DNA of 64,000 nt from Maribacter thermophilus (GTDB taxonomy: Bacteria; Bacteroidota; Bacteroidia; Flavobacteriales; Flavobacteriaceae), in NCBI RefSeq assembly GCF_001020565.1, contig NZ_LDAS01000001.1, positions 1,216,402 to 1,280,401 on the forward strand, given 5' to 3'. The notes beneath the pieces were generated by a model. It did no database searches and was not told the origin of the DNA. It was given only the letters and a program-made list of their open reading frames with translations. Positions 3,515 through 57,924 of the stretch are shown in pieces. A program made the translations under genes and the position numbers. Each line of letters opens with the position of its first letter. Within the stretch, counting starts at the first letter, position 1.

Positions 3515-3559
3515 AACAATCGTTTTGATCGCCTAAAGAAACTTATATGATCACATCTC

Positions 3560-6567: not shown

Positions 6568-6577
6568 TATATATAAT

Positions 6578-7885: not shown

Positions 7886-7889
7886 ATTC

Positions 7890-9443: not shown

Positions 9444-9457
9444 AAAGATGATTAAAT

Positions 9458-10231: not shown

Positions 10232-10257
10232 AAAAACCGCTATATGGCGGTTTTTTT
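10231..10257 (+). terminator. Hairpin terminator after OmpA-like paralogue
   Basis: A short stem ACCGC/GCGGT with a 6-nt loop, flanked by an A-run and seven T. The convergent lipoprotein gene ends at 10303, so it could act in both directions. Confidence 0.8.
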
Positions 10258-10302
10258 AATTTTATGCTATGGTATATAATGTCATATATTCTTTCGACCA
10301 TA

Positions 10303-11982: not shown

Positions 11983-12234
11983 ATAATGGAACTTAATTTA
12001 AATTTTACAATATTCGTTGTTCTATACCACAACAAAATAGTACATAACCAACCTCCTATTACAAAGAGGGTTAGACGCTTAAAATAACAAATATATTCAT
12101 ATTTCTATCTGATTTGCCTTGATTATAAATAGTCTCTCTCGATAAAAAACAAGTTTCAAGTATTTCATCGATCAAATACTATACTAATTGAAAAATTTGC
12201 ACGTTCTTATTTCGTAAATAATAAATTAATATAA

Positions 12235-12753: not shown

Positions 12754-12789
12754 AAACTACCCGTTAAAACTTATTTAATAAAAAATAAA

Positions 12790-12825
12790 AAAGGGCAACA
12801 GAAATAATTTTTGTTGCCCTTTTTA
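12790..12825. terminator. Bidirectional terminator between convergent genes
   Basis: The inverted repeat AAGGGCAACA/TGTTGCCCTT has A-runs on one side and T-runs on the other. It sits between the DUF7935-like gene and the patatin gene and can serve both. Confidence 0.85.
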
Positions 12826-15830: not shown

Positions 15831-15910
15831 AAAAAGCAGGGAAAACAGATAGCGTACCAAATTTAATATTTTAGTTTGTTGCAATTGTAGCTATAGCCTA
15901 TTTTAGTCCT

Positions 15911-18801: not shown

Positions 18802-18804
18802 TTT

Positions 18805-40494: not shown

Positions 40495-41193
40495 TTAACC
40501 CAGCCAGCCTTCTCTATCCAGCGATCTATATTGTATGGCCTCGCTTATATGACTCCCATTTAATTCGGGTTCACCGGCCAGATCCGCAATGGTACGGGAA
40601 ACTTTTAAAATTCTATCGTAGGCCCTTGCGGATAGATTCAACCGTTCCATAGCATTTTTCAACAGCTCTTTTGATTTATTGTCAAGCCTACAGAACTCCC
40701 TTATCTGTTTGGTATTCATTTGGGCATTATAGTGAACATTTTCCAACCCTTTAAACCTTTTTGTCTGTATCTCTCTAGCGGCCGTCACTCTTTTTCTGAT
40801 CTCTACACTGCCCTCACCTTTCCGGTCTTCTGATAATTTTTCGAAAGGCACGGGGGTTACCTCTATATGAATATCTATACGATCCAAAAGAGGCCCTGAA
40901 ATCTTACCCAAATACCGTTGCATTTCTGCCGGTGAGGAGGTAACGGGAGCATCGGGATCATTAAAATACCCTCCAGGGCTTGGGTTCATACTGGCCACTA
41001 ACATAAAGCTACTTGGGTAGGTAACCGTGAAACGGGCCCTTGAAATGGTCACTTCCCTATCCTCCAAGGGTTGCCTCATAACTTCGAGTACACCGCGTTT
41101 AAACTCTGGTAATTCATCCAAAAATAGAACCCCGTTATGGGAAAGTGATATTTCTCCTGGTTGCGGGTAGGCCCCGCCGCCTACAAGGGCCAC
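40495..41193 (-). pseudogene. comM: comM (yifB family), C-terminal fragment
   Basis: The last 233 codons of the Mg-chelatase-like helicase ComM, from DVALVGGGAYPQPGEISLSH to the normal end REGWLG. It holds Walker B (GVLFLDELPEF), sensor and arginine-finger regions and the C-terminal lid domain, but lacks Walker A. A frame through the junction adds 21 residues of element sequence in front (from ATG at 41256), so a stub might be made but would be an incomplete ATPase. Its other half is at 57088-57924, and both join in frame at a Val codon. Confidence 0.95.
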
Positions 41194-41204
41194 GTCTGTT
41201 ATAT
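41184..41204 (-). other. Element/comM junction, attachment site near the C-terminal fragment
   Basis: On the - strand the element ends ATATAACAGACGT and comM resumes at GTGGCCCTTGTAGG (GTG being the Val codon of SDVALVGG). The bases shared with the other junction are GA-GT, with T or C between, so the crossover is at GA or at GT (41192-41193 if GT). Confidence 0.85.
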
Positions 41205-41669: not shown

Positions 41670-42236
41670 TTAATTTATTATTTCAACTACTCCAGTATAA
41701 CTCCCATTAAATTGTCCTAAAGTTGTAACTGCATTAAAATTGAAATTAAAAGTGCCATCATTAAGTTCATTTACAATTATCCTTGCTTCTTCATTTACAA
41801 TATCATTTTGATTCATAACTGTATTATATGATTGAACCTCATTATTTGAAATTTGATATTGATTACTAAAACTTAATACTGATAAGTAGTTATTTGAGTT
41901 TCCATCCTCGTCATAGTTAAAAGTAATACTTGGTAAAATTGAAGCTTCTACTGGTACTCTAACCACAAACCCTAAACCATATTCAAAGTCATTAGAAAAT
42001 AATTGTGGATTTGAATTAAAATCTAATATTTCGCCTTTGGTTAAAAGGATTGTATAAAGACCACTATTACCTAAATTATCTCTTTTTATATAAGCATTAG
42101 TAATTTCATAACTATTATTAGCTATTGTAAAAGTGTTTTGATTATTTACATCATTCGTATTATTTTCATCAGATGATGAGCAACTAATTAATAAACCAGT
42201 CAAAAATAAAACTGTAATAAGTTTTGTAAATTTCAT
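41670..42236 (-). CDS. Small lipoprotein, unknown function (element cargo)
   Basis: A 188-residue lipoprotein (LTGLLISCSSSDENN). The mature part is Asn- and Ser-rich, mostly beta, with the periodic pattern seen in small Bacteroidota lipocalin-like lipoproteins, ending GQFNGSYTGVVEI. Its ATG overlaps the stop of the zinc-ribbon gene (ATGA), so it is the last gene of a coupled three-gene set. Function unknown. Confidence 0.7.
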   Translation of the reverse strand: MKFTKLITVLFLTGLLISCSSSDENNTNDVNNQNTFTIANNSYEITNAYIKRDNLGNSGLYTILLTKGEILDFNSNPQLFSNDFEYGLGFVVRVPVEASILPSITFNYDEDGNSNNYLSVLSFSNQYQISNNEVQSYNTVMNQNDIVNEEARIIVNELNDGTFNFNFNAVTTLGQFNGSYTGVVEIIN

Positions 42237-42715
42237 AAGACAGTAGTTTTAAATTCATTTTTTAAGTAATTCTTGATATTTGGGCTATCTACTTTTATTA
42301 ACTTTTCTTGTAATTCAGGATAAATTTTTGCACCTGTTATTCCTTTGATTTTAGTAGCTTTTATAACATCTGATTTTAATACAAAATCTAACACTAAAGG
42401 ATTGTCCAAATAAGGCTTTATAAGGCTTTTGAACAAAGTATTATAATGCCATCCTTTATCACACTCAATAAAATGTTTGAGGATATTTACCATTTGGGAT
42501 TTAATCTCATTGATAATTTTTTCCTGTTCCTCATCACTCATATTTTTCAAATTGTCAATAATTGATTTAAAATCTTCATTGGCAAAATCAATTTGTATTT
42601 GTTGCTTGTAAATTGTAGCCTTTTTACAAAAGGAACAACTCCATTTGAACTTTGGTTTATTCAGTTTATCAGGAATAAAAACTAAATTCATTGTATTTCC
42701 ACAAGAGCAATTCAT
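42233..42715 (-). CDS. Zinc-ribbon protein, unknown function (element cargo)
   Basis: A 160-residue protein that opens with MNCSCGNTMNL and WSCSFCKK, a CxC...CxxC zinc ribbon of about 35 residues. The rest is charged and helical (MSDEEQEKIINEIKSQMVN...). No signal peptide, so cytoplasmic. Overlaps both neighbours by 4 bp. I do not recognise the family. Confidence 0.65.
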   Translation of the reverse strand: MNCSCGNTMNLVFIPDKLNKPKFKWSCSFCKKATIYKQQIQIDFANEDFKSIIDNLKNMSDEEQEKIINEIKSQMVNILKHFIECDKGWHYNTLFKSLIKPYLDNPLVLDFVLKSDVIKATKIKGITGAKIYPELQEKLIKVDSPNIKNYLKNEFKTTVL

Positions 42716-42927
42716 TTTTTTCCTTTATTCATAGAATTCCCCCATATATATAGTGCTACTATAAAAATGATTATCATTACAATTAAAGCTCCAAACCCTA
42801 AACCTCCACCCCCTTTATGTGAATCATCAAATGCGTGAATTGCATCAGAATGAGCAGATGCTCCAGTTTGAGCCTTTATGTTAATTACATAAAGCATTAC
42901 AATTACAACTGATATACTTCTATTCAT
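42712..42927 (-). CDS. 71-residue exported membrane peptide (element cargo)
   Basis: A signal peptide (MNRSISVVIVMLYVINIKAQ), a short His/Asp/Gly-rich linker with GGGGLGFG, then a membrane helix (ALIVMIIIFIVALYIWG) and a basic tail. First gene of a coupled set with the zinc-ribbon and lipoprotein genes. Size and topology fit a small envelope effector or anchor; no homologue is recognised. Confidence 0.62.
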   Translation of the reverse strand: MNRSISVVIVMLYVINIKAQTGASAHSDAIHAFDDSHKGGGGLGFGALIVMIIIFIVALYIWGNSMNKGKK

Positions 42928-42978: not shown

Positions 42979-43010
42979 TAGGCAAGTTTGCCCATAGGTT
43001 TCTTTGCCTA
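42979..43010. promoter_or_regulatory. Repeated operator between divergent cargo operon and Xre gene
   Basis: GGCAA-GT-TTGCC (42981-42992) is a 12-bp dyad, and a third half-site TTGCCTA (43004-43010) is the reverse complement of TAGGCAA at 42979-42985. The group sits between the start of the three-gene cargo operon and the Xre gene, the place for an autoregulatory operator. Confidence 0.55.
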
Positions 43011-43027
43011 ATTGCACACTTTTGAGT

Positions 43028-43288
43028 GTGAAAAAATCTAATAAAACAAGAAAGCCTCCTGTAAGAAATGACAAGCTTTTAAAAGAGTTTGGTATTAATT
43101 TGCGTAAAATCCGAAAGCAAAAAGGGATTACTCAAGAACACCTAGCTTTTGAAATTGAATTGGAAATTTCACAAATAAGTAGAATTGAAAGAGGTATGTT
43201 AAACACTACCATAAGTACTGCTTATGAGATTGCTTCTGCATTAAATGTTGACTTAAAGGATTTATTTGATTTCTCTAAAAAAGATTGA
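43028..43288 (+). CDS. Xre-family transcriptional regulator
   Basis: An 86-residue helix-turn-helix protein: INLRKIRKQKGITQEHLAFEIELEISQISRIERGMLNTTI, then ASALNVDLKDLF. I chose the GTG at 43028 (VKKSNKTRKPP) because the longer frame from TTG at 43004 would run through the operator half-site. It probably represses itself and the divergent 71-residue/zinc-ribbon/lipoprotein operon. Confidence 0.82.
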   Translation: MKKSNKTRKPPVRNDKLLKEFGINLRKIRKQKGITQEHLAFEIELEISQISRIERGMLNTTISTAYEIASALNVDLKDLFDFSKKD

Positions 43289-43451: not shown

Positions 43452-43610
43452 TTATTGACCAAAGAAGTAAATATATGCTTTAAACAATCCAAAAATTACC
43501 AATAATATAATCAAAATCAAAAAACCACCCTTCATACTATCCAAAATTCTGTTAGAGTAATTATCGAAGTAATCATTATATCTTTTATCCTTTTTTTCCC
43601 TTTTTAACAT
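43452..43610 (-). CDS. 52-residue membrane peptide at the end of the restriction/repair operon
   Basis: The frame starts at the ATG at 43610 in a TAATG overlap with the SRAP stop, the same junction type as the two genes before it. The product has a charged N-terminus (MLKREKKDKRYNDYFDNYS), then one membrane helix (GGFLILIILLVIFGLF) and a short aromatic tail. The overlap and the clear helix support it as real. Role unknown; a membrane effector or anchor is a guess. Confidence 0.6.
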   Translation of the reverse strand: MLKREKKDKRYNDYFDNYSNRILDSMKGGFLILIILLVIFGLFKAYIYFFGQ

Positions 43611-44347
43611 TAAAATAAAGTATTCAATTCATCATAGTGAACTTGATTTACAATCTCTGAAATATTAGTATTTATTCTTGCATTGAATAAATCTCTACTT
43701 ACAGTAAAAGTTGATAATTGTGAATCATCAAATTTATGATTTACCAGTTCTTTGATTTCATTATCATTTAATGAATCTGATAACCAGCTTTCTTCATTTT
43801 CTTTAGATAGAATTACTGGTTGTCTTTTTCTTAAATTGTGAATATCAGCAAAAAGTGGAGATGCTGTTTTAGTTAGAATTGTGAAAGTAAAATATTCATC
43901 TATTGAAGTGTAAATTCCTGCTAGTCCAAAAACTTCATCATCAGTTCTTTTTATATGATAAGGATATTTCTTTCCTTTATAATCGTGAGGTTCATAAAAG
44001 CCTGTAACTGGAATTATACATCTTTTTGAACTGACTGACCTTTTATAAATGAAGTGTTCAAATAGCTTCTCTGATTGAGCATTAAGACCTCCACCAAATT
44101 GTACTGCTTTTTTATAATAGTCTCTTAAACCTTCTATTTTGGTGTTTGAGGGTGCAATTCCCCATGTTCCTATTGTTAGTACTGATGGTTCTTCTTGTGG
44201 TATAAATAGCATATTAGGATGTGAAAATCCATTTAGATGATATGAGGGTATGTCAAATGCATCCCTAGAATCTTCATCATATAGGCTTACTTTAAACCTA
44301 TTTTCTAATTTAACTACTTTCTTTGTCTGACTGGTATGGAAACACAT
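43610..44347 (-). CDS. SRAP domain protein (HMCES/YedK family)
   Basis: A 245-residue protein expected to form a covalent thiazolidine link with abasic sites in single-stranded DNA and protect them. The essential Cys2 is present once Met is removed (MCFHTSQ). The other conserved parts are visible: WGIAPSN, GLNAQSEK (for NARSE), TGFYEPHDY with the catalytic Glu, and DIHNLRKRQPVIL with the His. Coupled by TAATG to umuD upstream. Operon links of SRAP with SOS polymerases are established. Confidence 0.92.
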   Translation of the reverse strand: MCFHTSQTKKVVKLENRFKVSLYDEDSRDAFDIPSYHLNGFSHPNMLFIPQEEPSVLTIGTWGIAPSNTKIEGLRDYYKKAVQFGGGLNAQSEKLFEHFIYKRSVSSKRCIIPVTGFYEPHDYKGKKYPYHIKRTDDEVFGLAGIYTSIDEYFTFTILTKTASPLFADIHNLRKRQPVILSKENEESWLSDSLNDNEIKELVNHKFDDSQLSTFTVSRDLFNARINTNISEIVNQVHYDELNTLF

Positions 44348-44796
44348 TATAAATCTCTAATGAAATGTTGAACTATTCCTAAACATAAAATTGTATCATC
44401 TTCTCCAATTTCAATATTTGGAAATGATTTATTATCAGCAATTAAAATGTTTTTCTCCTTATCAAATCTTTTAACTGTAAATTCTGTATTATTTACTGAT
44501 AGAATTCCAATTTTATTATCTAATAACTCCTTATCTGACTTGACTATCAACAAATCTCCTATTTGTAAAGTTGGGTACATTGAATCTCCCTTTACTCTTA
44601 CTAAAAAAGTTGCATCAGGATTTGTTAAATATTTAGAATCCAAACTGATTCTTTGCTCTTTAAAATCGTCAGCAGGACTTGGAAACCCTGCTTGAACACC
44701 ATCTGAAAAATACTTAACCTTAATTTCATCTTCAAGTAATTCAAATGGCACAAATTCTAGTTCTGAACTTAACTTTGGTATTTTAACTATACTCAT
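44347..44796 (-). CDS. umuD: UmuD-like self-cleaving SOS protein
   Basis: A 149-residue S24 peptidase-type protein. The cleavage site is the Ala-Gly in GVQAGFPSPADD, the nucleophile Ser is in VKGDSMYPT and the Lys is in EFTVKRF. After RecA-aided self-cleavage it should form Pol V with UmuC. No DNA-binding domain is present, so it is UmuD rather than LexA. Start overlaps the umuC stop (TAATG). Confidence 0.94.
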   Translation of the reverse strand: MSIVKIPKLSSELEFVPFELLEDEIKVKYFSDGVQAGFPSPADDFKEQRISLDSKYLTNPDATFLVRVKGDSMYPTLQIGDLLIVKSDKELLDNKIGILSVNNTEFTVKRFDKEKNILIADNKSFPNIEIGEDDTILCLGIVQHFIRDL

Positions 44797-46052
44797 TATT
44801 CAACCTCTAATAATTCATTCCAGTCAGTAGTATATTTTTTTGAAAGTCTCTCTTGTCTCATCTTCCATGTTCTACCTAAATCCTGACTTCCTAATCTTAC
44901 CTTTTTTTGACCAGTAATTTTGTTCAACTTATCAATTGTTTTCATTAAAGATAAATGTTTTGGATTTTCCTCACAAAACATATTTAATTGCCTTTGATTT
45001 TCAGGAACAATTCCCATAACCATTACACCTGCCTTTTTATAATAATATCCCTCCTTGAAAATTGACTTTAAACCAATTTGAGCATATTTATTAATTGTCA
45101 ATGATGAGTTTGTAGGATAAGGTAATTTAACCACTATATTTTTTCCATATTGCCTATGGTCTTTTCTATGAGAATTAGTGTGTAAAAAAACTAAAATCAA
45201 ATTAGTACATGAGTTCTGTTTCCTCAATTTTTCAGCACATGATACTGCAAAAGTTGAAATCCTCTCTTTAACTTCATTTAAACTCGATAGGTTTTTTTCA
45301 AAAGAGCGAGTCGTTGCAATAGCTTTTTTGTTTTTGACTTCATCTAAATCTAAAGTCATTATTCCCATTAATTCTCTTTGTAGTCTTAAACCAACTATTG
45401 AAAACTCTTTTCTTACCCATTCACTAGGTAATTCAGTAAACTGATAAGCATTAAAAACATTATGTTTTTTAAGTCTATCTGAAATTCTTCTTCCAATTCC
45501 CCACACATCTTCAATTTTAGTCCATTTAAGAGCTTTTAAACGCTTTTCTTCTGTGTCGATAACATAAACCCCTTCTGTTAGGTTTTGATACTTCTTAGCT
45601 ATCTTATTTGCGATTTTAGACAAAGCTTTTGTAGGGGCTACTCCAATTGATACTGGAATTCCAGTCCACTTTTTAACTTTAGCTTTAATTTCTAAACAAT
45701 AAGAATTAAAATCATATTGGTCAAAACCTTCAAATTTCAAAAAAGCTTCATCAATTGAATAAATCTCAACATCAGGAGTATAGGTTGATAAGATATTCAT
45801 TACCCTGTTACTAATATCTCCGTATAAAGTATAGTTAGATGAAAATACATTTACACTATTTTTATTAAAAACCTCTTGGTATTGATAGGCAACTGCCCCC
45901 ATAGGTATTCCAATTTCTTTAGCTTCATTTGAACGTGCAATTACACACCCATCATTATTTGACAAAACCACAACTGGCTTTCCATTTAAGTCTGGACGAA
46001 ACACTCTTTCACAAGAGGCATAAAAGCTATTACAGTCAACTAAAGCAAACAT
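44796..46052 (-). CDS. umuC: UmuC-like Y-family DNA polymerase
   Basis: A 418-residue translesion polymerase. Catalytic carboxylates are in MFALVDCNSFYASCE and EIYSIDEAFLKF; the HhH region (DVWGIGRRISDRLKKH), the little-finger domain and a probable clamp-binding motif (RQLNMF, near residue 370) follow. I take the ATG at 46052, one base after the restriction subunit stop (TAA-A-ATG), over an upstream frame start at 46076. That places it in the same transcript as the restriction genes. Confidence 0.94.
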   Translation of the reverse strand: MFALVDCNSFYASCERVFRPDLNGKPVVVLSNNDGCVIARSNEAKEIGIPMGAVAYQYQEVFNKNSVNVFSSNYTLYGDISNRVMNILSTYTPDVEIYSIDEAFLKFEGFDQYDFNSYCLEIKAKVKKWTGIPVSIGVAPTKALSKIANKIAKKYQNLTEGVYVIDTEEKRLKALKWTKIEDVWGIGRRISDRLKKHNVFNAYQFTELPSEWVRKEFSIVGLRLQRELMGIMTLDLDEVKNKKAIATTRSFEKNLSSLNEVKERISTFAVSCAEKLRKQNSCTNLILVFLHTNSHRKDHRQYGKNIVVKLPYPTNSSLTINKYAQIGLKSIFKEGYYYKKAGVMVMGIVPENQRQLNMFCEENPKHLSLMKTIDKLNKITGQKKVRLGSQDLGRTWKMRQERLSKKYTTDWNELLEVE

Positions 46053-46053
46053 T

Positions 46054-49000
46054 TTACTCTTGGTATTCAACACCAATGACCTCTAACTGGTTTTCACTGG
46101 TAATATTGTCAATTGTCATTTTAGGAAATGCAGGATGTAAGGCTGATAATTCTAAAGTATAACTTCCAAATAAACTATCTCCTTTTTCTTGCTTTAAATT
46201 TAGCTTTCTTACAGTATATCCCTCTGGCTCATAATAATCCTTGATTGAATTATTATATATCAAACCTATCTTATCTTCTATTTGAGATAATTTGAAATCT
46301 GTATCAATTAAAATTAAATCATTAGCATTATACTTGGGATTTAGTAAACCTCCAATAACTTTTATTGCTATAACTGTATTAGGGTAATCTTTTTCAGGTA
46401 CTTTTACCCACCCTGATATTTTAACTTTAGATTGCTTTTTATAAAACCTTCTATGTGCGTTTTTAGGAGTGTAAAGAGGTAAATAAGTTTTATATTTAAG
46501 TTCCTCATCAACTGTACTCTCTACTTCAAGTGAGTTCTTAAATTTATCAAAAGTAGTTTTAGCATTTTCAACAAAATCATTCCATGAATCCCCTTCATCA
46601 AATACATCTGCATAACTATCAAGTACCATGATACCGTTGTATTTTTTTATTATATCATTCCCTTCTGCTTCATTAAGTTTTTCCAACAATTGACTTTTCT
46701 TGTTGTCAAAGAATTTTTCTCCTTTGCCCTCAACTACATAAAGCATATCTTTATACAATACGATGAAATCAGGGAAGTATTTTTTACTACCGTATGAGAA
46801 ATGAATTTGCCTATCATTTTTAATCCAAAAAGGAATTAGACCAACATTATTTTCATTAGTAATTATATCAAAATAATCAGCTAATTTCTTTTCAGTATAA
46901 GAATCGAATTTAGAATAGTCATAGATATTATTATCATATCCATAAAAATTATAACCCTCTTTAATTAGTTCGATAAGCTTTGTCTTATCTTTTAGCTTAA
47001 TCCCATCCTTGTTCTCAATTTGGTCAATCGGAATGGTAATGGTAGTCTCTGTAAATTGCTTCTTTAAGTTCCAACTATCTTCTGCAAATATTGGTTTAAA
47101 ATCTAATCGGAAATATCTTTTCTCAATGTAATTTCTGTAAAAGAATGAAAATGTATTTCTGAAATGGTTTCTAACAAGTTCTTCATCAGAATCTGAAATG
47201 TGATAATATTGCAATCCTATCTCGTTTAATTTATTCATATAAACCTGAAACTGTTTATTTATGAAATCCGTATCAGGAAGACAATACAATTGACTTGTTA
47301 CATGACCTAAAATTGATTTTGCATCTTTATTCCCTAGAATTAATTGTTTGGGTTTACCTCCTGCATTTTGAATTTGATGATGATATTCTTTTTTGTCTGC
47401 AAAAACATCAACTTCAACAAAAAAAGAGCTTGGTTTATATTTTACAAATCTTTTAATTTCATCACTTTCTCCTGAAAAGCAATTATCATCAGTAAAACTC
47501 TCAAGTATAGCATCAGTATTTGTAATTAAATCTACTAAACTTACTTTCTGACCATTTTCTTCTTTTACTTTAAAATCTGCCTTAATATGTGGCAAATACT
47601 TACCATCTAATAAATGAGATTTAACATTGTTATTAACCTGTTTCTTTTCTCTTTCATAAGAAAGATATTTATCAATCAAGCCAAATTCTTTTTGTATGGC
47701 TTGTATTTGTTCTTCAAAATTTTTCCCCTTATCACAAACTATATGTAATCTTTCTGCTTGTTGTAATAAAACATCATCAATATCATCAAATTCTCTCTTT
47801 TCTTTATTAAGCCGTACTCCTCTACCTATTATTTGTTTTACAGATGTTTTAAATTCTGTATCTGTATCATTGATTACTGCCATTGCATAGATATTAGGCA
47901 AATCAATACCTTCATCTAGCTTTTGCATATAAACTACCAGTTCAACTTCATTAGTTCTAATCTCATTAAACTTCTTTTCAGTTTCCTTATCTGACTTTCC
48001 ATGATAAAAAATTGAGGTTTCTGCAATATCCTGAATATCCTTGCTAATTTTTGATATATCATTTTGATATTCACTTTCCAATAAACCCTTTATCAAATTG
48101 ATTATTTCTAGGTCTTGAATCGCTATTTTATCCAATATGATGTTCAAGTTATCAATATCATTTGAAAGGTCATTTTTAATATAGTCAAATACAATTTGAG
48201 TATATTTTGTGTCATCTTTAACTTTTACAAAAGATATAGGCTTCAATCCTTTTGCTTTTTCATCCAATAAGACTGACTTCTTTTTAATTAAATGTATTAG
48301 GAAAAGTGTTATTAGTTTTAACCTCTCTGATTGTGGAACATCAGTTTTGGATTTTTCAACTTTTTCAGGAGTAGCTAATGCAATCGCTCTTACTAACTTT
48401 CCATGACCATCTTCTAATAAGCTTCTGATGTCATATTTGAAAGCAATAGTTTGATTCTTTTTTTCTTGGTCTCTATTGTTTTCTACTGCCGTTGCAGTAA
48501 ACTCAATAACCGATAAAGGATGAAAGTTTTTAATTATTTTACCAGACCCTCCTTTACTTTGAGCGTGATGGGCTTCATCTGTAATAATTACTAATTTCTT
48601 GTCTTGTAAAAATTGTTTTATCCCTATGGTATTTCCTTCTTCATCTTTCCATATAGCAGATTCCCACGCTTTTTCTGTATTTGTTGCATTTGCACCAAAC
48701 TTATCCATGTTAAAAATGAATATATTTGGAACATCTTTATCTGTAAAAAGATTCTGTTGATAATTATCCCCAGTAATTAAGTTATATTTAAACGGAGAAT
48801 CATCAGCCCAAACAGATTCAAAATTTCCACTTGTAAAATTCCTGACTGTTTTATGATATATATCCTTTTTTGCATGTGGAGTAATTATTAAAAAATTATC
48901 AATCCCATGCTTTTTATTTAATAAATATATGGAAGCCCCCATCAACATAGTTTTACCACTTCCTGTCGCCATTTCATAGCCTATATAAGGTGCTTTCTCC

Positions 49001-49299
49001 CCTTTGGCAGTCTTATCTAACAAATCTTTAATAAGTGGGCTTATTCTTCTACCAGTCTTTTTATTTAAGTCAAGCTCGGCTTGTGAAGTTGAAAACAAAT
49101 AATCTAAAACATATAAGGCATTCATTTGATAATACCTTAATTGGTGTTTAGTAATTCCATCTTCTAAACTATTGAATATCGAAAATTCAGAAGTTGAAAA
49201 TAAAGCAGTTTTGTTTACTTGATAGTCTGATACTATCTGTTTTAACTCCTTTTCGTACCTCTGATAATATGAGGCTATAAGTGTCTTTAATTTTGCCAT
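46054..49299 (-). CDS. Type III restriction subunit (Res)
   Basis: A 1081-residue SF2 helicase-nuclease that should translocate or slide on DNA and cut when two unmodified sites meet. Motif I is MATGSGKTML (about residue 115), motif II is IITDEAHHAQS, and motifs V/VI are MQKLDEGIDLPNIYAMAVIND and QIIGRGVRLNK. The C-terminal nuclease has KKYFPDFIVLYKDMLYVVEGKGEK, the PD...ExK pattern. I chose the ATG at 49299; a TTG at 49305 is also in frame. It starts 8 bp after the mod stop. Confidence 0.93.
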   Translation of the reverse strand: MAKLKTLIASYYQRYEKELKQIVSDYQVNKTALFSTSEFSIFNSLEDGITKHQLRYYQMNALYVLDYLFSTSQAELDLNKKTGRRISPLIKDLLDKTAKGEKAPYIGYEMATGSGKTMLMGASIYLLNKKHGIDNFLIITPHAKKDIYHKTVRNFTSGNFESVWADDSPFKYNLITGDNYQQNLFTDKDVPNIFIFNMDKFGANATNTEKAWESAIWKDEEGNTIGIKQFLQDKKLVIITDEAHHAQSKGGSGKIIKNFHPLSVIEFTATAVENNRDQEKKNQTIAFKYDIRSLLEDGHGKLVRAIALATPEKVEKSKTDVPQSERLKLITLFLIHLIKKKSVLLDEKAKGLKPISFVKVKDDTKYTQIVFDYIKNDLSNDIDNLNIILDKIAIQDLEIINLIKGLLESEYQNDISKISKDIQDIAETSIFYHGKSDKETEKKFNEIRTNEVELVVYMQKLDEGIDLPNIYAMAVINDTDTEFKTSVKQIIGRGVRLNKEKREFDDIDDVLLQQAERLHIVCDKGKNFEEQIQAIQKEFGLIDKYLSYEREKKQVNNNVKSHLLDGKYLPHIKADFKVKEENGQKVSLVDLITNTDAILESFTDDNCFSGESDEIKRFVKYKPSSFFVEVDVFADKKEYHHQIQNAGGKPKQLILGNKDAKSILGHVTSQLYCLPDTDFINKQFQVYMNKLNEIGLQYYHISDSDEELVRNHFRNTFSFFYRNYIEKRYFRLDFKPIFAEDSWNLKKQFTETTITIPIDQIENKDGIKLKDKTKLIELIKEGYNFYGYDNNIYDYSKFDSYTEKKLADYFDIITNENNVGLIPFWIKNDRQIHFSYGSKKYFPDFIVLYKDMLYVVEGKGEKFFDNKKSQLLEKLNEAEGNDIIKKYNGIMVLDSYADVFDEGDSWNDFVENAKTTFDKFKNSLEVESTVDEELKYKTYLPLYTPKNAHRRFYKKQSKVKISGWVKVPEKDYPNTVIAIKVIGGLLNPKYNANDLILIDTDFKLSQIEDKIGLIYNNSIKDYYEPEGYTVRKLNLKQEKGDSLFGSYTLELSALHPAFPKMTIDNITSENQLEVIGVEYQE

Positions 49300-49307
49300 A
49301 GCCAATA

Positions 49308-51161
49308 TTATTTTTCTAGTTCGGAAAAGATTGCTTTTGGCACTTTAATTACCTCTAAATCATCAGGCTTACTTTCATAGGCAATTTCAACTCCTCTGTT
49401 TGTGAATACGTTAATATATTGAGGGTTATAATGTCTTTTAACATGTTGGTATATATGAAAAATCTCATCATAAGCCATAAAATTATTGTTTTCATCAGGT
49501 GCATTTAATGAAATAATTGCAACCCTTTTTTTAGTTCCAACTTCTTGTAAGCCAATTAAAGGAATTTGATTATCAGGAAATATAAATCCATTTGATAAAT
49601 CAATACTATAATCTATAATGTAATCATAAGAAGCTAAAAAAGATTCTTCAATATATCTTCGTCCCAATCGCCAATTGAAATCGCCTGTACCATCTTGATT
49701 TAAAGTAATTATACTTTCTCCTAAATGATAATATTTAAAACTACCTCCTCCTTGCCAATTAACTTCCTCTGAAACACCAAGTTTATCTTCATTAGATATA
49801 ACTTTAAGCATTCTAGGTAAAATCACTTCATCAGCATGACCACCAATCTCTACACCTATCCATTTTCTATTCATTTTATGTGCAACTGAAAATGTAGTAC
49901 CACTACCACCAAAAGAATCGAATACTAAATCCCCTTCATTAGTACTTAAATGAATAATTTTCTTTAACAATTTTTCAGGCTTCGGTGTATCAAATATTTT
50001 ATGTCCGAATAAATCTTTAATTTCTTTATTAGCAGTCCTAGTAGTTCCTGATTCATCTCCATACCAAACACTTTCAGGCAAATCATCTAAGTCCTTGTCA
50101 AACCAAATTGATTCAGGTACTCTACCTTTTTGATTCTTCAAATATATTTTCCTAATTATTCTGGTTTCATCATCTGAAAAAATTATTTCGCCTGATTTTA
50201 TTTTCTCCTTTACAGTTTCTTTACTCCATCTCCAACCATTTTCAGGAGGAGAAATTACATTCCCTGATGGAGTTTTTATATCATATATTAAGTTTGGTCT
50301 ATATAATGAATTTCTAACATCCCCACTTCTCCAATCCCCATTCGGGTCATTATCTGGATTTGAATAATTAATATTATGTTTTTCTAATCTTTCATCTAAT
50401 CCCAATTTTATTTCATCATTTTTTCTGTAACATAAAATATAATTATGATGTATTGAAAATTTACCTTCATATCCTTTTCCTTGTAGTGAATGTTGCCATA
50501 TTATATTACCCATGAAATTCATCTTACCAAAAATATCATCCATCAATAATTTTGCATGAAATATTGCGTTGTCATCTAAAGTTACCCAAATGAACCCATC
50601 ATTTGCCATTAAATCATAGATTCCTACCAATCTATCTCGAAACATTGATAACCATTCAGACATTTCGAGATTATCATCATACTGCTCAAATGCATTACCA
50701 GTATTATATGGAGGGTCAATAAAAACACATTTTATTTTTTCTTCATCTGGCTTATTATCTAAAATCTTCTTTAATGTATTGAGAGCTAATAAATTATCTC
50801 CCTTTATCAACATATTGTCTATACTTGAGTCTTCTTTTTTACCTTCTTCAATAATCCACTCTTTTAATGTATCAGGTAAAGTTCCTTCAACATCGTTTTG
50901 AGTTCCCTTAAAAGTGTTTTGTAATACAAGTGGTCTAGCTTCCTTAACTCTTATATCATTTCTATCAACCCAATAAGGTGTTAATCCTTTTCCTTCTTCA
51001 TCATCAATTTCATAAAAAAGAGCATCTTCTTTATTTATCCAATTAATTTTTGGAGCAGGAATATCTGAATCCATTTTAATATCATCTTGATTTCTTACAA
51101 GAATAGATTTTTGTTTGTTATACCATTCTAGTGATAGCGAACCTTTGTATTTTTTAGCCAT
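49308..51161 (-). CDS. Type III modification methyltransferase (Mod)
   Basis: A 617-residue beta-class DNA methyltransferase. The catalytic motif IV DPPYNTG is at residues 149-155 and the SAM motif FGGSGTT at 417-423, with the target-recognition region between them (order IV, TRD, I as in type III). It is expected to methylate adenine N6 on one strand and to supply specificity to Res. I see no simple repeat tract that would suggest slipped-strand phase variation. It begins 2 bp after the helicase-nuclease stop. The recognition sequence cannot be read. Confidence 0.94.
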   Translation of the reverse strand: MAKKYKGSLSLEWYNKQKSILVRNQDDIKMDSDIPAPKINWINKEDALFYEIDDEEGKGLTPYWVDRNDIRVKEARPLVLQNTFKGTQNDVEGTLPDTLKEWIIEEGKKEDSSIDNMLIKGDNLLALNTLKKILDNKPDEEKIKCVFIDPPYNTGNAFEQYDDNLEMSEWLSMFRDRLVGIYDLMANDGFIWVTLDDNAIFHAKLLMDDIFGKMNFMGNIIWQHSLQGKGYEGKFSIHHNYILCYRKNDEIKLGLDERLEKHNINYSNPDNDPNGDWRSGDVRNSLYRPNLIYDIKTPSGNVISPPENGWRWSKETVKEKIKSGEIIFSDDETRIIRKIYLKNQKGRVPESIWFDKDLDDLPESVWYGDESGTTRTANKEIKDLFGHKIFDTPKPEKLLKKIIHLSTNEGDLVFDSFGGSGTTFSVAHKMNRKWIGVEIGGHADEVILPRMLKVISNEDKLGVSEEVNWQGGGSFKYYHLGESIITLNQDGTGDFNWRLGRRYIEESFLASYDYIIDYSIDLSNGFIFPDNQIPLIGLQEVGTKKRVAIISLNAPDENNNFMAYDEIFHIYQHVKRHYNPQYINVFTNRGVEIAYESKPDDLEVIKVPKAIFSELEK

Positions 51162-51163
51162 TT

Positions 51164-53878
51164 TTAATTTCTTTTTGATTTGAACCTACAAACACATTTT
51201 GGGTCATTACAAGTATGTTCTAATTCGTTATTTCTTATTTTGTTTGCAGCATCTATGATTCTGTTTTTCATATCATCTAAATCATTTGCTGTCAATTCGT
51301 TTTTATGTGAATCGTTTTTATCGAGATTGTAAATTTCTAAAAAGTCTGCATTATCCCCTGTTAATTCTTTATATCCTAAAGCGTAGAGTTGTAGTTGGTC
51401 AATTGTAGCATTATAGGCTTGGGCATCTTCTGTCGATTTAAAGTCAATAATTACCCTCTCCTCTGTTCCATCTAACTTTTTTCTTTTAATCAAATCCATT
51501 TGACCATTAACAATTATTCCATCCCCTAAATCTAACTGAATGTCCTTTTCAGCATATTCTATTGTTGGAAATTCATCTTGATTTTTATCGTGATAAACTT
51601 CTACTGATTTTATTGCTCGTTTGGTCATATCTCCCTCAACTACTGACAAAGCATAAGGAAAATTAGTATGCCTATCAACAAGTTCAGGAATTTCTGATTT
51701 ATCTAATACGTTTCCTTCAATTGCCTCTCTGTGCATTTCCATTAAAGACCTATGAATTGCACTACCATAACCAATTCTAGCCCCTAGAGGATTTTGAAAT
51801 CCATAAAATGACCAAAACTTAAATGAATATGGACAATCAAAAAATGCTTTTAACAATGTGAAGTTTAAAGATATATTAGCAAGTTCTCCTAAATATTGTG
51901 GAGTAGTTTTATTTCTTTCTGAATAATCTCTCCCTTTAGATGTGAACAAGTATTCCGATTGTCTTATTTCTTGACAAAATTCAGATTCTTTTCCTTGCAT
52001 TCTACCATCAGGAGACCTACTTATTAATAAAAACTTTTTAGCTCTAGTTATTGCAACGTAAAGAAGCCTTCTTTCATCTTCTGTACCTGTGGCATATCGC
52101 TCAACATCTCTTATTGGCAACGATAAAATAGATTTTAGAATAGTAGCGTTTTTTCCAGTAGGTTTAGATGAAGGTAGATAGTTTCTATTAAGACCAGGTA
52201 TAAAGACAACTGGAAATTCCAACCCTTTAGATTGAAATATTGTCATTATTTGGACTGCATTAGGTGTCTTAAAAGTATTGTTCAACCAACCTTCAGGATA
52301 ATAATTTTCAGCAGAATATTTTAAGAAGTTCATAAAACTACTTAACTTCCATTGTGGGTCTGTTTTAAAATAAATGGTTTCAAAGTCATTTATAATTTGA
52401 CTAAACATACCTAAATTGTAAAATACTATTTCTTCACTATTATAACCTAAAGAATTATCTTCATCATTTTCAAAAACATCTTCACTTATCCCTGCTTTCT
52501 CTATAAAGGTCATGTAAATATCCTGAATATTAAATGCTTCGTAATAAGTATCCCTATGAGGGATTTTTTTATCTAAATATGCAATAGCTTCCCTTAAATC
52601 ACTTGAATTAATTTTAGAACTTAAACCTTGCCAATATAATTCAAGAATTGTACTATCAATTTCTCCTTGTAAATAGGAAAAGATTGCCTTAGCAGACTGT
52701 ATTTCAGGTCTATTGAATAGTTCATTTACACCTGTAACAATGAAAGGAATATTGGCATCTGAAAGGGCTTCCATAATTGGTTTAGCTTTTTTCCACTTTC
52801 TTACTAATATTACCATATCTCCATAGTCTAAACCTCTTGATTTAGTTTCTAATTTATCTTTAAACTCAACCCCTATCAAGTTATTTATGCTATCAACTAT
52901 GGCTTGATTTTCACTACTAATATCTTCATATTGATTGAAAAGAATATCTCCTCTTTCATAGTCTTGATGTCCACTTGCATTCATTGACTTTTCAAGTCTT
53001 TTAGTATTATTTGTAATACAATTCAAGGCAACATCTATAATACCTTTAGAACATCTAAAATTATCCTCTAACTTTATATACTCAACATTATCATACCTAT
53101 TTTGAAAACCTTGAATATAATTTACATCACTACCCCTCCATTGAAAAATAGTTTGGTCATCATCCCCAACCACACATAAATTACAATTCATCTCATCAAA
53201 CAGTTTTACTATTTCTTCTTGAATTGGGTTTACATCTTGATATTCATCAACAATTAAATATTTAGTAGAATCTTTTAGTTTTTGATATAAGTTCTCATCA
53301 TTTCTTGCTTCCTCAATTAACTGGGTCATAATCATTGAGAAATCAAAGTAGTAGTGCCTATGCAAAAGTGATTCATATTTTCTTAATGCCTCAATATAGC
53401 TTTCATCAATATTTTCAAGAGTTTCAGATTCTCTTAATGCTGATATAAGTGATGTAAAATGTCCTGTGTCTTTAAACCTCTCAAAGTTTAAGTCCATCAT
53501 TCCACTTTCCTTAAAATATTTATCAATGAATAATTTAAGTTTTATCTCATCTAACACTCCATATTTTTGATACTTATACATGGAATCCTGTAATATCTTC
53601 AAACACCATGAATGTATTGTACCAACATACATTTCAGCAATACCAGTTTGTTCAGGTAATTGTTCTTTACATTTCTTTAATACCCTTGCTTGTAATTCCG
53701 AAGCAGCTTTTTCAGTATAGGTAAATGCTATTATTTCAGATGGATTTACTCCTGATTTAATTATTTCAACTATCCTTTGTGAAATAACTTCTGTTTTACC
53801 TGAACCTGCACAGGCTGTAATCAACAAGTTTTTATCTAATGTATGAATTGCTTTATATTGATTATCTGTATATTTCAT
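51164..53878 (-). CDS. UvrD-type helicase fused to PD-(D/E)XK nuclease
   Basis: A 904-residue SF1A helicase with a C-terminal RecB-like nuclease. Helicase motifs: TACAGSGKTEV (residues 21-31), AFTYTEKAASELQAR, LIVDEYQDVNPIQ, VGDDDQTIFQWRGSD, EDNFRCS, IMTIFQSKGLEFPVVF and YVAITRAKKFLL. The nuclease part, from about residue 680, has DCPYSFKFW, GQMDLI, VIIDFKSTEDA and QLQLYALG. A Cys in DCPY plus C-x4-C-x-C at the extreme C-terminus (CNDPKCVC) suggests an AddB/Cas4-like Fe-S cluster. Overlaps the Xre gene by 4 bp and precedes mod by 2 bp. Confidence 0.9.
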   Translation of the reverse strand: MKYTDNQYKAIHTLDKNLLITACAGSGKTEVISQRIVEIIKSGVNPSEIIAFTYTEKAASELQARVLKKCKEQLPEQTGIAEMYVGTIHSWCLKILQDSMYKYQKYGVLDEIKLKLFIDKYFKESGMMDLNFERFKDTGHFTSLISALRESETLENIDESYIEALRKYESLLHRHYYFDFSMIMTQLIEEARNDENLYQKLKDSTKYLIVDEYQDVNPIQEEIVKLFDEMNCNLCVVGDDDQTIFQWRGSDVNYIQGFQNRYDNVEYIKLEDNFRCSKGIIDVALNCITNNTKRLEKSMNASGHQDYERGDILFNQYEDISSENQAIVDSINNLIGVEFKDKLETKSRGLDYGDMVILVRKWKKAKPIMEALSDANIPFIVTGVNELFNRPEIQSAKAIFSYLQGEIDSTILELYWQGLSSKINSSDLREAIAYLDKKIPHRDTYYEAFNIQDIYMTFIEKAGISEDVFENDEDNSLGYNSEEIVFYNLGMFSQIINDFETIYFKTDPQWKLSSFMNFLKYSAENYYPEGWLNNTFKTPNAVQIMTIFQSKGLEFPVVFIPGLNRNYLPSSKPTGKNATILKSILSLPIRDVERYATGTEDERRLLYVAITRAKKFLLISRSPDGRMQGKESEFCQEIRQSEYLFTSKGRDYSERNKTTPQYLGELANISLNFTLLKAFFDCPYSFKFWSFYGFQNPLGARIGYGSAIHRSLMEMHREAIEGNVLDKSEIPELVDRHTNFPYALSVVEGDMTKRAIKSVEVYHDKNQDEFPTIEYAEKDIQLDLGDGIIVNGQMDLIKRKKLDGTEERVIIDFKSTEDAQAYNATIDQLQLYALGYKELTGDNADFLEIYNLDKNDSHKNELTANDLDDMKNRIIDAANKIRNNELEHTCNDPKCVCRFKSKRN

Positions 53879-54159
53879 TCTTTATCTTTCAATCTTCTTT
53901 TTGTTAGATTTATCGCTTTAATTCCAAATTCTTCTCCTTCTACTTCTTGAATTATTTTATCACTTAACCAATAAGTAAATACTTTTTCTTTATCTAATTC
54001 AAGAGCATCAATTAAGTTTATTAATTGCTCTTTAGTAGGCTTTCTTTCTCCATTTTCAATCCTGCTTATAGTTGCAACATCAACTCCAACAAGACTTGCC
54101 AAATCTTTCATTAAAAAACCTTTTTTCTCCCTATATGATTTTATTAATTCTGAAAGCAT
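53875..54159 (-). CDS. Xre-family regulator, first gene of the restriction/repair operon
   Basis: A 94-residue protein with an N-terminal helix-turn-helix (LIKSYREKKGFLMKDLASLVGVDVATISRIENGERKP) and a C-terminal tail (YWLSDKIIQEVEGEEFGIKAINL). This is the usual layout of control proteins in restriction systems. Its stop overlaps the start of the helicase-nuclease gene (ATGA). A dyad lies 17 bp upstream over the probable promoter, so autorepression is likely. Confidence 0.88.
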   Translation of the reverse strand: MLSELIKSYREKKGFLMKDLASLVGVDVATISRIENGERKPTKEQLINLIDALELDKEKVFTYWLSDKIIQEVEGEEFGIKAINLTKRRLKDKE

Positions 54160-54176: not shown

Positions 54177-54198
54177 TTGACATCTCTTGTCAAATCTA
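54177..54198 (-). promoter_or_regulatory. Operator dyad overlapping a -7 box for the restriction/repair operon
   Basis: TTGACA (54177-54182) and TGTCAA (54188-54193) are an inverted repeat with a 5-bp spacer. On the - strand TAGATTTG (54191-54198) is an exact TAnnTTTG box that overlaps one half-site. A protein on the dyad would block the promoter. The ATG of the Xre gene is 17 bp beyond the dyad. Confidence 0.6.
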
Positions 54199-54539: not shown

Positions 54540-55151
54540 ATGAATGCAAGGTATGTTAGAGTAAGTACATCTAATCAAAATTTAGAAAGACAATTGAGAG
54601 AAGATTATAAAAACGAAAATCTCTTTATTGACATAGTAAGTGGTGCAACTCCATTCTGTGAAAGGGAACAAGGTATAAAACTAATTGAAGCTGTTAAAAA
54701 GAAGGAAATAAACTATGTTAGTGTACACTCAATAGATAGACTAGGGAGAAATTTATTTGACATTCTTTCAACATTAGAAATATTCAATAAAAACAATGTT
54801 GTTTTAAAAGTAGATAATCTTGGTTTAGAAAGTTTAGTTAAAGGGAAACCTAATCAAGCTTTTAAGTTAATTATAAGTGTTATGGCTAACATAGCTGAAA
54901 TGGAAAGAGAGACAATGCTAGAAAGACAAAAAGAAGGCATTATGATAGCTAAAGCAAAAGGAACTTACAAAGGCAGAGTTAGAGGGTCAAAAGAATCTGA
55001 CAGTACAATCCTTTCAAAATATAAGAATGTAGTAAAACATTTAAAAAAGAATCAATCAATAAGAAATACTGCCAAATTATGTGAAGTTAGTGCAGGAACA
55101 GTTCAGAAAGTCCAGAAGATTCTAAAAAGAAATGAATCCATTCTTCAATAG
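54540..55151 (+). CDS. Small serine recombinase (resolvase/invertase)
   Basis: A 203-residue serine recombinase with the catalytic Ser9 in YVRVSTSNQNLERQ, the SIDRLGRN motif, the E-helix IAEMERETMLERQKEGI and a C-terminal Hin-like helix-turn-helix (IRNTAKLCEVSAGTVQKV). It would resolve or invert DNA between its own sites, or act on another plasmid or phage. Its 3' end overlaps that of the large recombinase by 65 bp, in the opposite direction. Confidence 0.92.
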   Translation: MNARYVRVSTSNQNLERQLREDYKNENLFIDIVSGATPFCEREQGIKLIEAVKKKEINYVSVHSIDRLGRNLFDILSTLEIFNKNNVVLKVDNLGLESLVKGKPNQAFKLIISVMANIAEMERETMLERQKEGIMIAKAKGTYKGRVRGSKESDSTILSKYKNVVKHLKKNQSIRNTAKLCEVSAGTVQKVQKILKRNESILQ

Positions 55152-57036
55152 ATTTCCCTTTGGATTTAAAATCTAAATATCCATTAGATTTATTGATATA
55201 ATCTTTAGCATTCTTGTCAACTGAAATCCTGCTTAATCCACATTCATTAGATAACCAATTCGGATTTTTTTTGTAAAAAGCTAAAATCTTTTTTTCTGTC
55301 CAATCAGAACAATTACCAAAAGGAATAATAGTGTTATGCAAGAAAAAAGCTTGATTCTTTTTATCAATATAAAAAGGAACTGAAACAGCTTTTCCTGATG
55401 GTTGTATGAAAAAATATTTTAATAAATCTTTATTATGTAATAAAGAAAGTTCATTTGTATTGGAGTTAAAAAACTTTGAAGTATAGAATTTCTCATCATT
55501 AATAGAAAGAAGAATGTCATTTCGAGTATCTATTACATAATGTTCATCTATCAAATTAATTTTAAATTTAAAGATTAAAGAATAAATACTAGTTTGATTA
55601 TCCCAACATTGAACATAAATCTCACTTATGTACTTATTTACAATTTTTTGCTTTTCTAAAAAAGATAATTTATCAGTATAAGATTCAAACTCCTTCTTTC
55701 TATTTTTTACTAACTCTTGACTATTTTTTGCATTTGCAAGTTGTAATTGAAAGTCTTTAATCAATCTATTTTTCTCAATAATAGAATTTTTAATTGATTC
55801 CATTTTTTTCTTTGCATCTTCTTTTGATATTACAGCATCAGTTATAGCCTCTATTAAGTTGTCTTTTTTATTTATTAAACTATTGAGTGATTTGTGTTCT
55901 ACTTTAATAATCTCCTCTATCTCATTAATCTTATTGTCATCTTTAACAATATCTTTTTCAATTAAATTCATCAACTCATCATCTCTAAAAAATCTTGACC
56001 AAACAGCACCTTCAATTTTATCAATATTTATACTTCTATTTCCACAACTGTTATTTTTAATTCTTTTAGAACTACATTGATAGTAGTGGTCTTTTTTACT
56101 TTGACGACTTCTCCCATACATGTTTCTACCACATTTATTACATTTTAAAATTCCTTTGAGTAAGTATTTATATGTAACTTTTTTACCTGAATTATTAGCG
56201 TTTTTAGGTATGTTATCATTAACTCTTTCCCAAAATTCAGTATCCAAAATTTGAGGCACATCTATTTCATTACCTTTCCATAATCTTTTTCCCTTATATA
56301 TTGGATTTTTTAAAATTGTTCTAATAGTATTACCTTTCCATAAGGCATCTTTTTTATTTAAGGTTTTATACGAACCGTTGTATTTATCTTTAACCTTATA
56401 TTGCCCCTTGCCTAATTTCTTATATCGAGTTGGAATATTTTTTTCATTAAGATAATTAGCTATGGAATCAGTACCCATACCTGAAAGAGATAAATCATAA
56501 ATTTGTTTAATAACTTTACTTTCTTCTTCATCGATTATTAAATATCCATTGTTGTCTTTTGTAAAACCGTAAGCTACCATTCCATGAACCTTACCTTCTT
56601 TAACGTTCCTATCTAAAACAGCTTTAATCTTTTTTTTAAGTATGTCAACGTATCTTTTGTTTATTAAAGATGAAATACTTCCAATGAACATCTCATCAAC
56701 ATCATATAAATCAAATTCTTTCCCTCCTTCAAAGTATAATTTAATATTCTCTTTTTTGAATAATTCACAAACATGAAACCAAACTTCTGGATTCCTTTCA
56801 AGTCTATCTTGATTTGTAACAAATACAGAAGTAATTACACCTTCAGTAATATCATCAAGAAGTATATTAAAGTTTGGTCGTTTATCAATTGTGAGAGTTC
56901 CTGACAAGCCATCATCTTTATAGATTTTATATTGCAAATTTTCTCTATTTGCGAAATCTATTCCTGATTTAACTTGATTTTCAATTGATTTCGCATCGTG
57001 GTCTTCCCTAGAAAGTCTTGCATAAATACCTAACAT
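55087..57036 (-). CDS. Large serine recombinase, the element integrase
   Basis: A 649-residue site-specific recombinase. Catalytic Ser9 is in IYARLSREDHD, with VTNQDRLERN in the catalytic domain. The recombinase domain (about 155-270, GMVAYGFTKDNNGYLIIDEEE...), a zinc ribbon (CNKCGRNMYG...YYQCSS...SCGN) and a coiled coil (about 370-455) follow. About 130 further residues after the usual end (from KAVSVPFYIDKK) form an extra domain with a possible helix-turn-helix (WTEKKILAFYKKNPNW). It starts 51 bp from the junction in comM and so is the likely enzyme of insertion. Confidence 0.93.
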   Translation of the reverse strand: MLGIYARLSREDHDAKSIENQVKSGIDFANRENLQYKIYKDDGLSGTLTIDKRPNFNILLDDITEGVITSVFVTNQDRLERNPEVWFHVCELFKKENIKLYFEGGKEFDLYDVDEMFIGSISSLINKRYVDILKKKIKAVLDRNVKEGKVHGMVAYGFTKDNNGYLIIDEEESKVIKQIYDLSLSGMGTDSIANYLNEKNIPTRYKKLGKGQYKVKDKYNGSYKTLNKKDALWKGNTIRTILKNPIYKGKRLWKGNEIDVPQILDTEFWERVNDNIPKNANNSGKKVTYKYLLKGILKCNKCGRNMYGRSRQSKKDHYYQCSSKRIKNNSCGNRSINIDKIEGAVWSRFFRDDELMNLIEKDIVKDDNKINEIEEIIKVEHKSLNSLINKKDNLIEAITDAVISKEDAKKKMESIKNSIIEKNRLIKDFQLQLANAKNSQELVKNRKKEFESYTDKLSFLEKQKIVNKYISEIYVQCWDNQTSIYSLIFKFKINLIDEHYVIDTRNDILLSINDEKFYTSKFFNSNTNELSLLHNKDLLKYFFIQPSGKAVSVPFYIDKKNQAFFLHNTIIPFGNCSDWTEKKILAFYKKNPNWLSNECGLSRISVDKNAKDYINKSNGYLDFKSKGKSIEEWIHFFLESSGLSELFLH

Positions 57037-57077
57037 ACAACTAATTTTAGGTAAATATAATAAAATGGTTACATTCT

Positions 57078-57098
57078 ACAATAAGACATCAGATATGG
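57078..57098 (-). other. comM/element junction, attachment site near the integrase
   Basis: On the - strand comM runs through ATATCTGATGT and the element continues CTTATTGTAG, which puts a stop codon three codons later. Joined to the other junction, the restored site is ATCTGATGTGGCCCTTGTAG and the free element site would be AACAGACGTCTTATTGTAG if the crossover is at GT (57086-57087). Confidence 0.85.
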
Positions 57099-57924
57099 TA
57101 TGATGAGGGCTACGAAAAGGTCTTTGGCTCATAAGCCCCATATTTTTTATCTTTCCCACTACACTATGAATTTTGGTGGTTTCCAAAGCTTCGTGCAAGG
57201 TCATGGGAGGCAATATGGAAGGGAGCCTTTTTGCAAGCATGGTCTTACCCGCCCCTGGCGGACCTATCAATATAATATTATGTCCACCGGCGGCAGCAAT
57301 TTCCATACACCGCTTTATGCTCTCTTGCCCCTTTACATCCGAAAAATCAAATTCTGGAAAATCCAGGCTTTTATAAAATTCCTCTCGTGTATCTATAATG
57401 GTCTGTTCTAATGGGGTACCCTTATCAAAAAATTCTATGACTTGTTCTATATTATCTACCCCGTATACTTTTAAATCACCTACAATAGCGGCTTCCTTGG
57501 CATTCTGTGTGGGCAATATAAAACCGGTAAAACCTTCTTCTTGGGCCTTTATGGCAATGGGCAGGGCTCCTTTTATGGGTTGTAAACTTCCATCTAACGA
57601 AAGCTCTCCCATGATAATATACTTATCTATATCCTCTGATTGTATTTGGCCAGATGCTGCCAATATGCCCAATGCCAATGTTAAATCGTAAGCAGAACCT
57701 TCTTTTCTAAGATCCGCAGGGGCCATATTTATTGTAATCTTTTTACCGGGAATTTTATAACCATTGTTTTGCAATGCCGCTGCAATACGATAATTACTTT
57801 CTTTAATGGCGTTATCGGGAAGACCTACCAAATGGTAACCTATTCCTTTATCAATATTTACCTCAACCGTAATCGTTGTCGCCTCTACGCCAAAAACGGC
57901 ACTACCATAAACTTTTGTGAGCAT
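57088..57924 (-). pseudogene. comM: comM (yifB family), N-terminal fragment
   Basis: The first 279 codons of ComM, a hexameric branch-migration helicase that extends heteroduplex in natural transformation. It has the LonC-like N-terminal domain (GSAVFGVEATTITVEV, KITINMAPADLRKEGSAYDL) and Walker A (ILIGPPGAGKTMLAKR), and it ends in FRSPHHTISDV plus LL and a stop from the element (frame ends at 57076). Walker B and all later parts are on the other side of the element. No active enzyme can be made while the element is in place. Confidence 0.95.

Follow-up and report, generated by a model that had tools for sequence, protein, structure and literature searches.

An eight-gene restriction and damage-tolerance operon in Maribacter as probable cargo of a serine-recombinase island in comM

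Fusions of a UvrD helicase to a Cas4-like nuclease are most commonly encoded beside Mod and Res, a context proposed to serve defense (Hudaiberdiev 2017, PMC5704561). UmuC, UmuD, and SRAP are adjacent in SOS neighborhoods (Aravind 2013, PMC3765255), and mobile DNA splits the comM of several species at orthologous positions, an insertion argued to block transformation (Croucher 2016, PMC4774983). Each module, and insertion in comM as such, is already published. Here, we analyzed a 64,000-nucleotide stretch (the window; NZ_LDAS01000001.1, positions 1,216,402 to 1,280,401) from the marine bacterium Maribacter thermophilus, in which eight minus-strand genes (43452-54159) join a UvrD-nuclease, Mod, and Res to umuC, umuD, and SRAP inside a split comM. 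We conclude that these genes probably make up the chief cargo operon of a comM island of 15.9 kb, in which two modules have been fused head to tail and are coupled by co-residence. Mild mutual benefit of the modules is possible; an obligate single system is unlikely. What appeared to be an eight-gene defense system would then be a mobile island with exchangeable defense cargo.

The window resembles each described system in part. With the neighborhood of PMC5704561 it shares a UvrD-pfam12705 nuclease fusion beside Mod and Res, which helix-turn-helix proteins sometimes accompany there; the words umuC, SRAP, and integrase are absent from the main text of that paper, whereas the window module lies on the island of a large serine recombinase (LSR) and has umuC-umuD-SRAP behind it. 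Compared with the SOS neighborhoods in the excerpted text of PMC3765255, the window has the order umuC-umuD-SRAP, places these genes behind a restriction module, and belongs to a host with no LexA over the model cut-off. As in EcoP15I-type type III restriction-modification, Mod and a Res-like gene stand in tandem, but the window adds UvrD-nuclease and Xre genes. The species named in the excerpted text of PMC4774983 are non-Bacteroidota and its integrase is CF65_00446-like, whereas the window belongs to Flavobacteriaceae and its integrase to the serine recombinase family. Neither the LSR-comM island family of Flavobacteriaceae nor the cargo combination of the window was found in the open-access literature, subscription papers being outside the scope.

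The operon sits inside a split comM/yifB, a gene related to DNA uptake. Its 5' half (57076-57924, minus strand; 282 codons to a premature stop) matches Pfam ChlI, the N part of Mg_chelatase, and TIGR00368, and is 98% identical to the intact comM of another genome of the genus (G023). The 3' half (40495-41191, minus strand) has the C part of Mg_chelatase and Mg_chelatase_C and is 97% identical to the same gene. We placed the attL core GATGT (57086-57090) and the attR core GACGT (41192-41196), both on the minus strand, by the end of homology to intact comM, by virtual excision, and by their recurrence at one position across the other islands. When the flanks were joined in silico after GATGT/GACGT, 15,894 bp dropped out and the result was an open 511-codon comM, 499 of whose 511 residues are identical to those of the intact G023 protein. 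Directly adjoining the comM 5' half is the gene for the LSR (55087-57036, minus strand; 649 aa; Resolvase, Recombinase, and Zn_ribbon_recom domains), the predicted island integrase, with relatives at other comM islands. G+C content is 28.4% between the comM halves and 38.7% in the rest of the window. These observations demonstrate the anatomy of the insertion in comM, with the features of an integrative island: an LSR at the island end, an att core at both ends, and an empty site in relatives. They strongly support the operon being cargo of a mobile LSR island and, by the same anatomy, integration by the LSR at comM; the LSR would insert the island at the core GA(T/C)GT and split comM, whose function is presumably lost.

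Interruption of comM recurs in the family. The comM 5' part was seen in 33 of 36 genomes of the genus, 30 of them with an open frame of at least 511 codons; comM is interrupted in the genome of the window (G000) and in G002, and in G031 it lies at a contig edge. Across the family, the comM 5' part is present in at least 171 of 199 genomes, and 13 of 299 carry an LSR relative (E<=1e-30), the genome of the window included. In nine of these 13 (G000, G113, G123, G159, G163, G228, G261, G366, and G137) the relative adjoins comM or sits in a comM island, in G137 at the far side of it; those of G273 and G302 lie away from comM, and those of G155 and G288 were viewed with short flanks only. Eight islands retain both comM halves and so are complete (the window, G002 of the same genus, G113, G123, G137, G163, G228, and G366), those of G261 and G159 being cut by contig ends. 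All eight break comM at one place with the core [GA]A[TC]GT, which begins with A in G366; the core in the other islands was found with a pattern written after the first alignment, and so displays the core without testing it independently. Inside the islands, the arms look like the halves of an inverted repeat, with CCACATTATA and TATAATGTGG where this is clearer, which fits the attP of a serine integrase. In G155 and G234, a short comM open frame was rejected as an interruption because it reflects a contig end; G122 and G115 also have short comM open frames and stand outside the island count.

The islands differ in what they carry: restriction-modification of type I, II, or III, a DprA-phosphoribosyltransferase-HAD set, a GmrSD-like protein, or a prophage. 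The G123 island carries HsdM, HsdS, HsdR, and PDC-M01A/B (PADLOC) together with umuC-umuD-SRAP, and that of G002 a type II methyltransferase and a restriction enzyme. DprA, a phosphoribosyltransferase, and HAD are found in G163; an EcoRI-type methyltransferase, a GmrSD_N-HNH protein, DprA, a DEAD helicase, and SRAP in G137; a Schlafen-type helicase with GIY-YIG and SRAP in G366; and phage head- and tail-like ORFs (open reading frames), judged by eye, in G113. SRAP is present on four of the eight complete islands (three of seven without the window), and umuC-umuD on two of the eight. The islands point to comM as a Flavobacteriaceae integration hotspot for serine-recombinase elements and for one or more prophage-like inserts, where further defense genes might be sought; they also offer a set of LSR/att pairs and a testable link between defense islands and loss of transformation. 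Recurrent SRAP on these islands, with or without DNA polymerase V (Pol V), is an unexplained and testable pattern.

Two further inserts were observed. The G113 insert (L170, L203, L208; G113:C36:363568-397996) is prophage-like and ~33 kb long, with the same core and a related recombinase. In G053 (L211, G053:C1:575800-595700, 42-12838), an ~11-kb comM island lies ~45 bp beyond the common site, outside the eight; its serine recombinase is divergent, and it holds an ORF that by eye resembles a GHKL ATPase.

The operon itself is as the initial annotation described it: all eight frames are open and adjacent on the minus strand at the coordinates given, Pfam agrees with the proposed family for seven of the eight proteins, and the proposed junctions recur exactly. 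In 5' to 3' gene order these are a 4-bp ATGA overlap, 2 bp, 8 bp, TAA-A-ATG, and three times TAATG. Six of the proteins (the UvrD fusion, Mod, Res, UmuC, UmuD, and SRAP) keep the catalytic motifs expected of them.

The first module begins with a 94-aa Xre-type regulator (53875-54159; HTH_3) and a 904-aa fusion of a UvrD helicase with a RecB/Cas4-like PD-(D/E)XK nuclease (51164-53878), assigned by UvrD-helicase, UvrD_C, and PDDEXK_1 (PF12705, E 4.7e-16), by its motifs, and by its relatives. Mod (49308-51161; 617 aa) is a predicted type III methyltransferase (N6_N4_Mtase; PADLOC MTase_III, 3e-102) with DPPY at 149 before FGGSG at 417, the beta-class order; its profile matches the EcoP15I Mod structure 4zcf (6e-29), and compared with the Mod of L021 its ends are conserved and its middle divergent, as in a variable target-recognition region. 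Res (46054-49299; 1081 aa) is a putative superfamily 2 translocase with a C-terminal PD-ExK motif (ResIII over cut-off, 4.7e-22; Walker A, DEAH, and PDF-x13-EGK), and motor and nuclease motifs are kept in four Res proteins. A predicted Res model was set aside as unusable (mean predicted local distance difference test score 36.7). From these families, methylation and cutting by Mod-Res are predicted: Mod would methylate host sites, and Mod-Res would sense unmodified DNA, translocate, and cut. The UvrD-nuclease probably resects the cut ends, which we propose would turn restriction into destruction.

Module one exists without module two. Full-length relatives of the UvrD-nuclease fusion came from many phyla among the best 80 kept, and in the 30 nearest loci (L024-L053) a Mod-like methyltransferase was found in 15 and a Res-profile match in five, counted on the fetched DNA, several contigs of which are short. 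Exactly the order UvrD-nuclease-Mod-Res, formed by closely related genes, is shared by the window, Maribacter antarcticus (L025), G255 (L175), and a Nitrospirae metagenome-assembled genome (L024; UvrD 63% identity), and the latter three keep it without umuDC-SRAP. Xre had no similarity match in these three loci; a weak match lies ahead of the fusion in L051. By gene order, then, UvrD-nuclease-Mod-Res is demonstrably a separable module, in print since 2017. Searches of mobile DNA gave 58 pattern matches to the Res profile and no true relative among viral contigs, no place covering 80% of the UvrD fusion among phages, and two of 804 matching plasmid records that cover 80% of Mod, all below 60% identity.

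The second module comprises UmuC, the predicted Pol V catalytic subunit (44796-46052; 418 aa; IMS, IMS_C, and DUF4113), UmuD (44347-44796; 149 aa; Peptidase_S24), a SRAP/YedK-like protein (43610-44347; 245 aa; SRAP domain), and a 52-aa peptide with a single hydrophobic segment (43452-43610), called from sequence only. The peptide had no match in Pfam, PADLOC (E<=1e-5), or NCBIfam, and no relative besides itself in the fetched loci (E<=1e-3). As predicted from their families, these genes would form a mobile damage-tolerance cassette, Pol V bypassing lesions and SRAP shielding abasic sites in single-stranded DNA. At E<=1e-60, this UmuC is the only one in its genome, which has two further SRAPs elsewhere. 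UmuC and UmuD are 82% and 80% identical to their counterparts on the G123 island, and both islands keep the one-base TAATG junction. In maximum-likelihood trees, the window UmuC and the G123-island UmuC are sisters (28 rows; 99/96) and UmuD forms a set of three rows with those of G123 and G109 (21 rows; 100/100), whereas SRAP groups in an eight-row set from other umuDC operons (15 rows; 100/99), away from the G123 SRAP. The trees disagree, so umuC-umuD and SRAP were joined separately in the two islands; the tail is, on this phylogenetic evidence, a mosaic with a history apart from module one.

In 25 opened umuC loci outside the window, umuD lies within 3 kb in 20 and SRAP downstream in 11. An additional arrangement was seen outside comM in G273 (L178, G273:C17:126000-145999, 8024-19337), where a serine recombinase, a UvrD-like helicase, umuD, umuC, and SRAP occur with other ORFs interspersed.

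To the initial annotation, the eight genes were one system that cuts foreign DNA and protects the host, a claim that would fail if relatives almost never combined Mod-Res with umuDC-SRAP. Such combinations proved very rare. None of 47 UvrD-nuclease loci (843 kb) has umuC, umuD, or SRAP (E<=1e-3); 20 of 199 family genomes hold 25 distinct Mod loci (E<=1e-20), two of which, those of the window and G180, lie within 10 kb of umuC (E<=1e-60); and when the 25 umuC loci outside the window were examined over 8 kb, one showed a relative of Mod or Res. Without the window, one of 24 Mod loci is near umuC (0.09 expected; P 0.09), and among type I HsdM loci the figure is one of 27, G123, the source of the query. 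In G180 (L185, G180:C8:63000-80000, 7021-15822), the type III pair is another one (Mod 36%, Res 26%) and lies outside comM; after three small ORFs, it is followed by umuD-umuC-SRAP on the same strand. The tight layout stands, as does the proximity of umuDC-SRAP to restriction-modification in G123 and G180, but the modules are rarely together and their histories differ.

Several observations nevertheless weigh against the reading of the operon as two co-resident modules on an LSR island. Genes that had evolved together as an operon would be joined no more tightly, and within the eight genes no minus-strand terminator-like site was found. umuDC-SRAP lies near restriction-modification both in G123 (type I, same island family) and in G180 (another type III), and SRAP is on three of seven other islands where 0.09 (G000 density) to 0.15 (assumed density) would be expected (P ~1e-4 to 5e-4); together, these suggest that the pairing may not be pure chance. 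Superfamily 1 helicases in operons with SRAP and UmuCD had already been noted (Aravind 2013, PMC3765255). At a comparable comM place G159 has GCTGT, unlike [GA]A[TC]GT. The Res profile matched no solved structure, so that Pfam, its motifs, and the neighboring Mod carry its type III assignment.

These points bear differently on the alternatives. One integrated restrict-and-repair system, expressed as a single transcript in which the nuclease module cuts the invader while Pol V and SRAP guard the host chromosome from self-damage, would account for the stop-start overlaps from Res through the 52-aa gene and for the independent closeness of the two functions in G123 and G180. We consider it improbable, since the modules occur apart far more often than together, the gene histories differ, and the G123 umuC-umuD-SRAP has ~300 bp upstream without a same-strand neighbor, hsdM being on the other strand. 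Alternatively, the cassette may serve the mobile element: an island that has just entered in single-stranded or nicked form would be helped through lesions and past host nucleases, a role also ascribed to plasmid-borne Pol V operons. The closest umuC and umuD relatives lie on a comM island of another genus, SRAP is enriched on such islands, and the window UmuC is the sole one of its genome, but umuC-umuD is on only two of the eight complete islands, and no transfer or replication genes were recognized on the window island (ORF list and Pfam scan; no relaxase or transfer domain in 16 scanned ORFs of at least 45 aa, comprising four comM/recombinase, eight operon, and four others). We hold this for a real rather than a favored possibility. 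More tentatively still, the umu operon could simply have landed behind Res with no benefit from the pairing; a single case of Mod-umuC closeness outside the window is compatible with such a chance neighborhood, whereas frame-perfect coupling and the SRAP enrichment speak against it. Although rare, the pairing is, given that enrichment, not clearly pure chance.

Co-residence as cargo therefore remains our preferred reading, and the cargo would presumably benefit both island and host. A selected combination of restriction and damage tolerance on comM islands, in which the cassette helps addictive restriction islands become established, is in our judgment unlikely. Before full host methylation, Pol V and SRAP would allow both host and island to tolerate gaps and abasic sites arising from self-cutting and the UvrD-nuclease; if this were true, splitting comM would also lower island loss by transformation.

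The junctions are consistent with co-transcription of the eight genes. RecA-dependent activation through UmuD, also proposed initially, is plausible only in part: UmuD keeps its cleavage-site and Ser/Lys motifs, and RecA-stimulated cleavage is possible. No host LexA scored over the model cut-off, however, the single match being the island UmuD (49.7 bits versus 110.95) in a search whose control was positive in nine of 14 genomes, which makes classical LexA-type SOS induction doubtful. A crude dyad count in 31 stretches upstream of umu operons gave A+T-rich dyads only and no shared operator. Upstream of the operon, TAGATTTG (54191-54198, minus strand; 39 bp before the Xre start) is a candidate -7 element that matches TAnnTTTG, which we take to be the -7 consensus; the eight matches on the minus strand of the island are about the chance number, and a promoter scan was uninformative (114 sigma-70-like sites versus 99 in shuffles).

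Other genes complete the island. Between the operon and the attR end, three overlapping small ORFs (41670-42927, minus strand) encode a 71-aa membrane protein (42712-42927), a 160-aa protein (42233-42715), and a 188-aa lipoprotein-like protein (41670-42236); none had a family in the Pfam scan or relatives in the fetched loci. A second Xre-type regulator (43004-43288, plus strand; HTH_3) has a 42% relative in the G163 comM island. At the other end lies a small serine recombinase of the resolvase/invertase type ("Pin"; 54540-55151, plus strand; Pfam Resolvase); a search for inverted or direct repeats at which it could invert DNA gave imperfect pairs only, with no clear invertible segment. It has 44-67% relatives in the comM islands of G123, G366, G137, and G261, and similar recombinases recur on four of the eight islands (L171, L172, L200, and L165 among the relatives).

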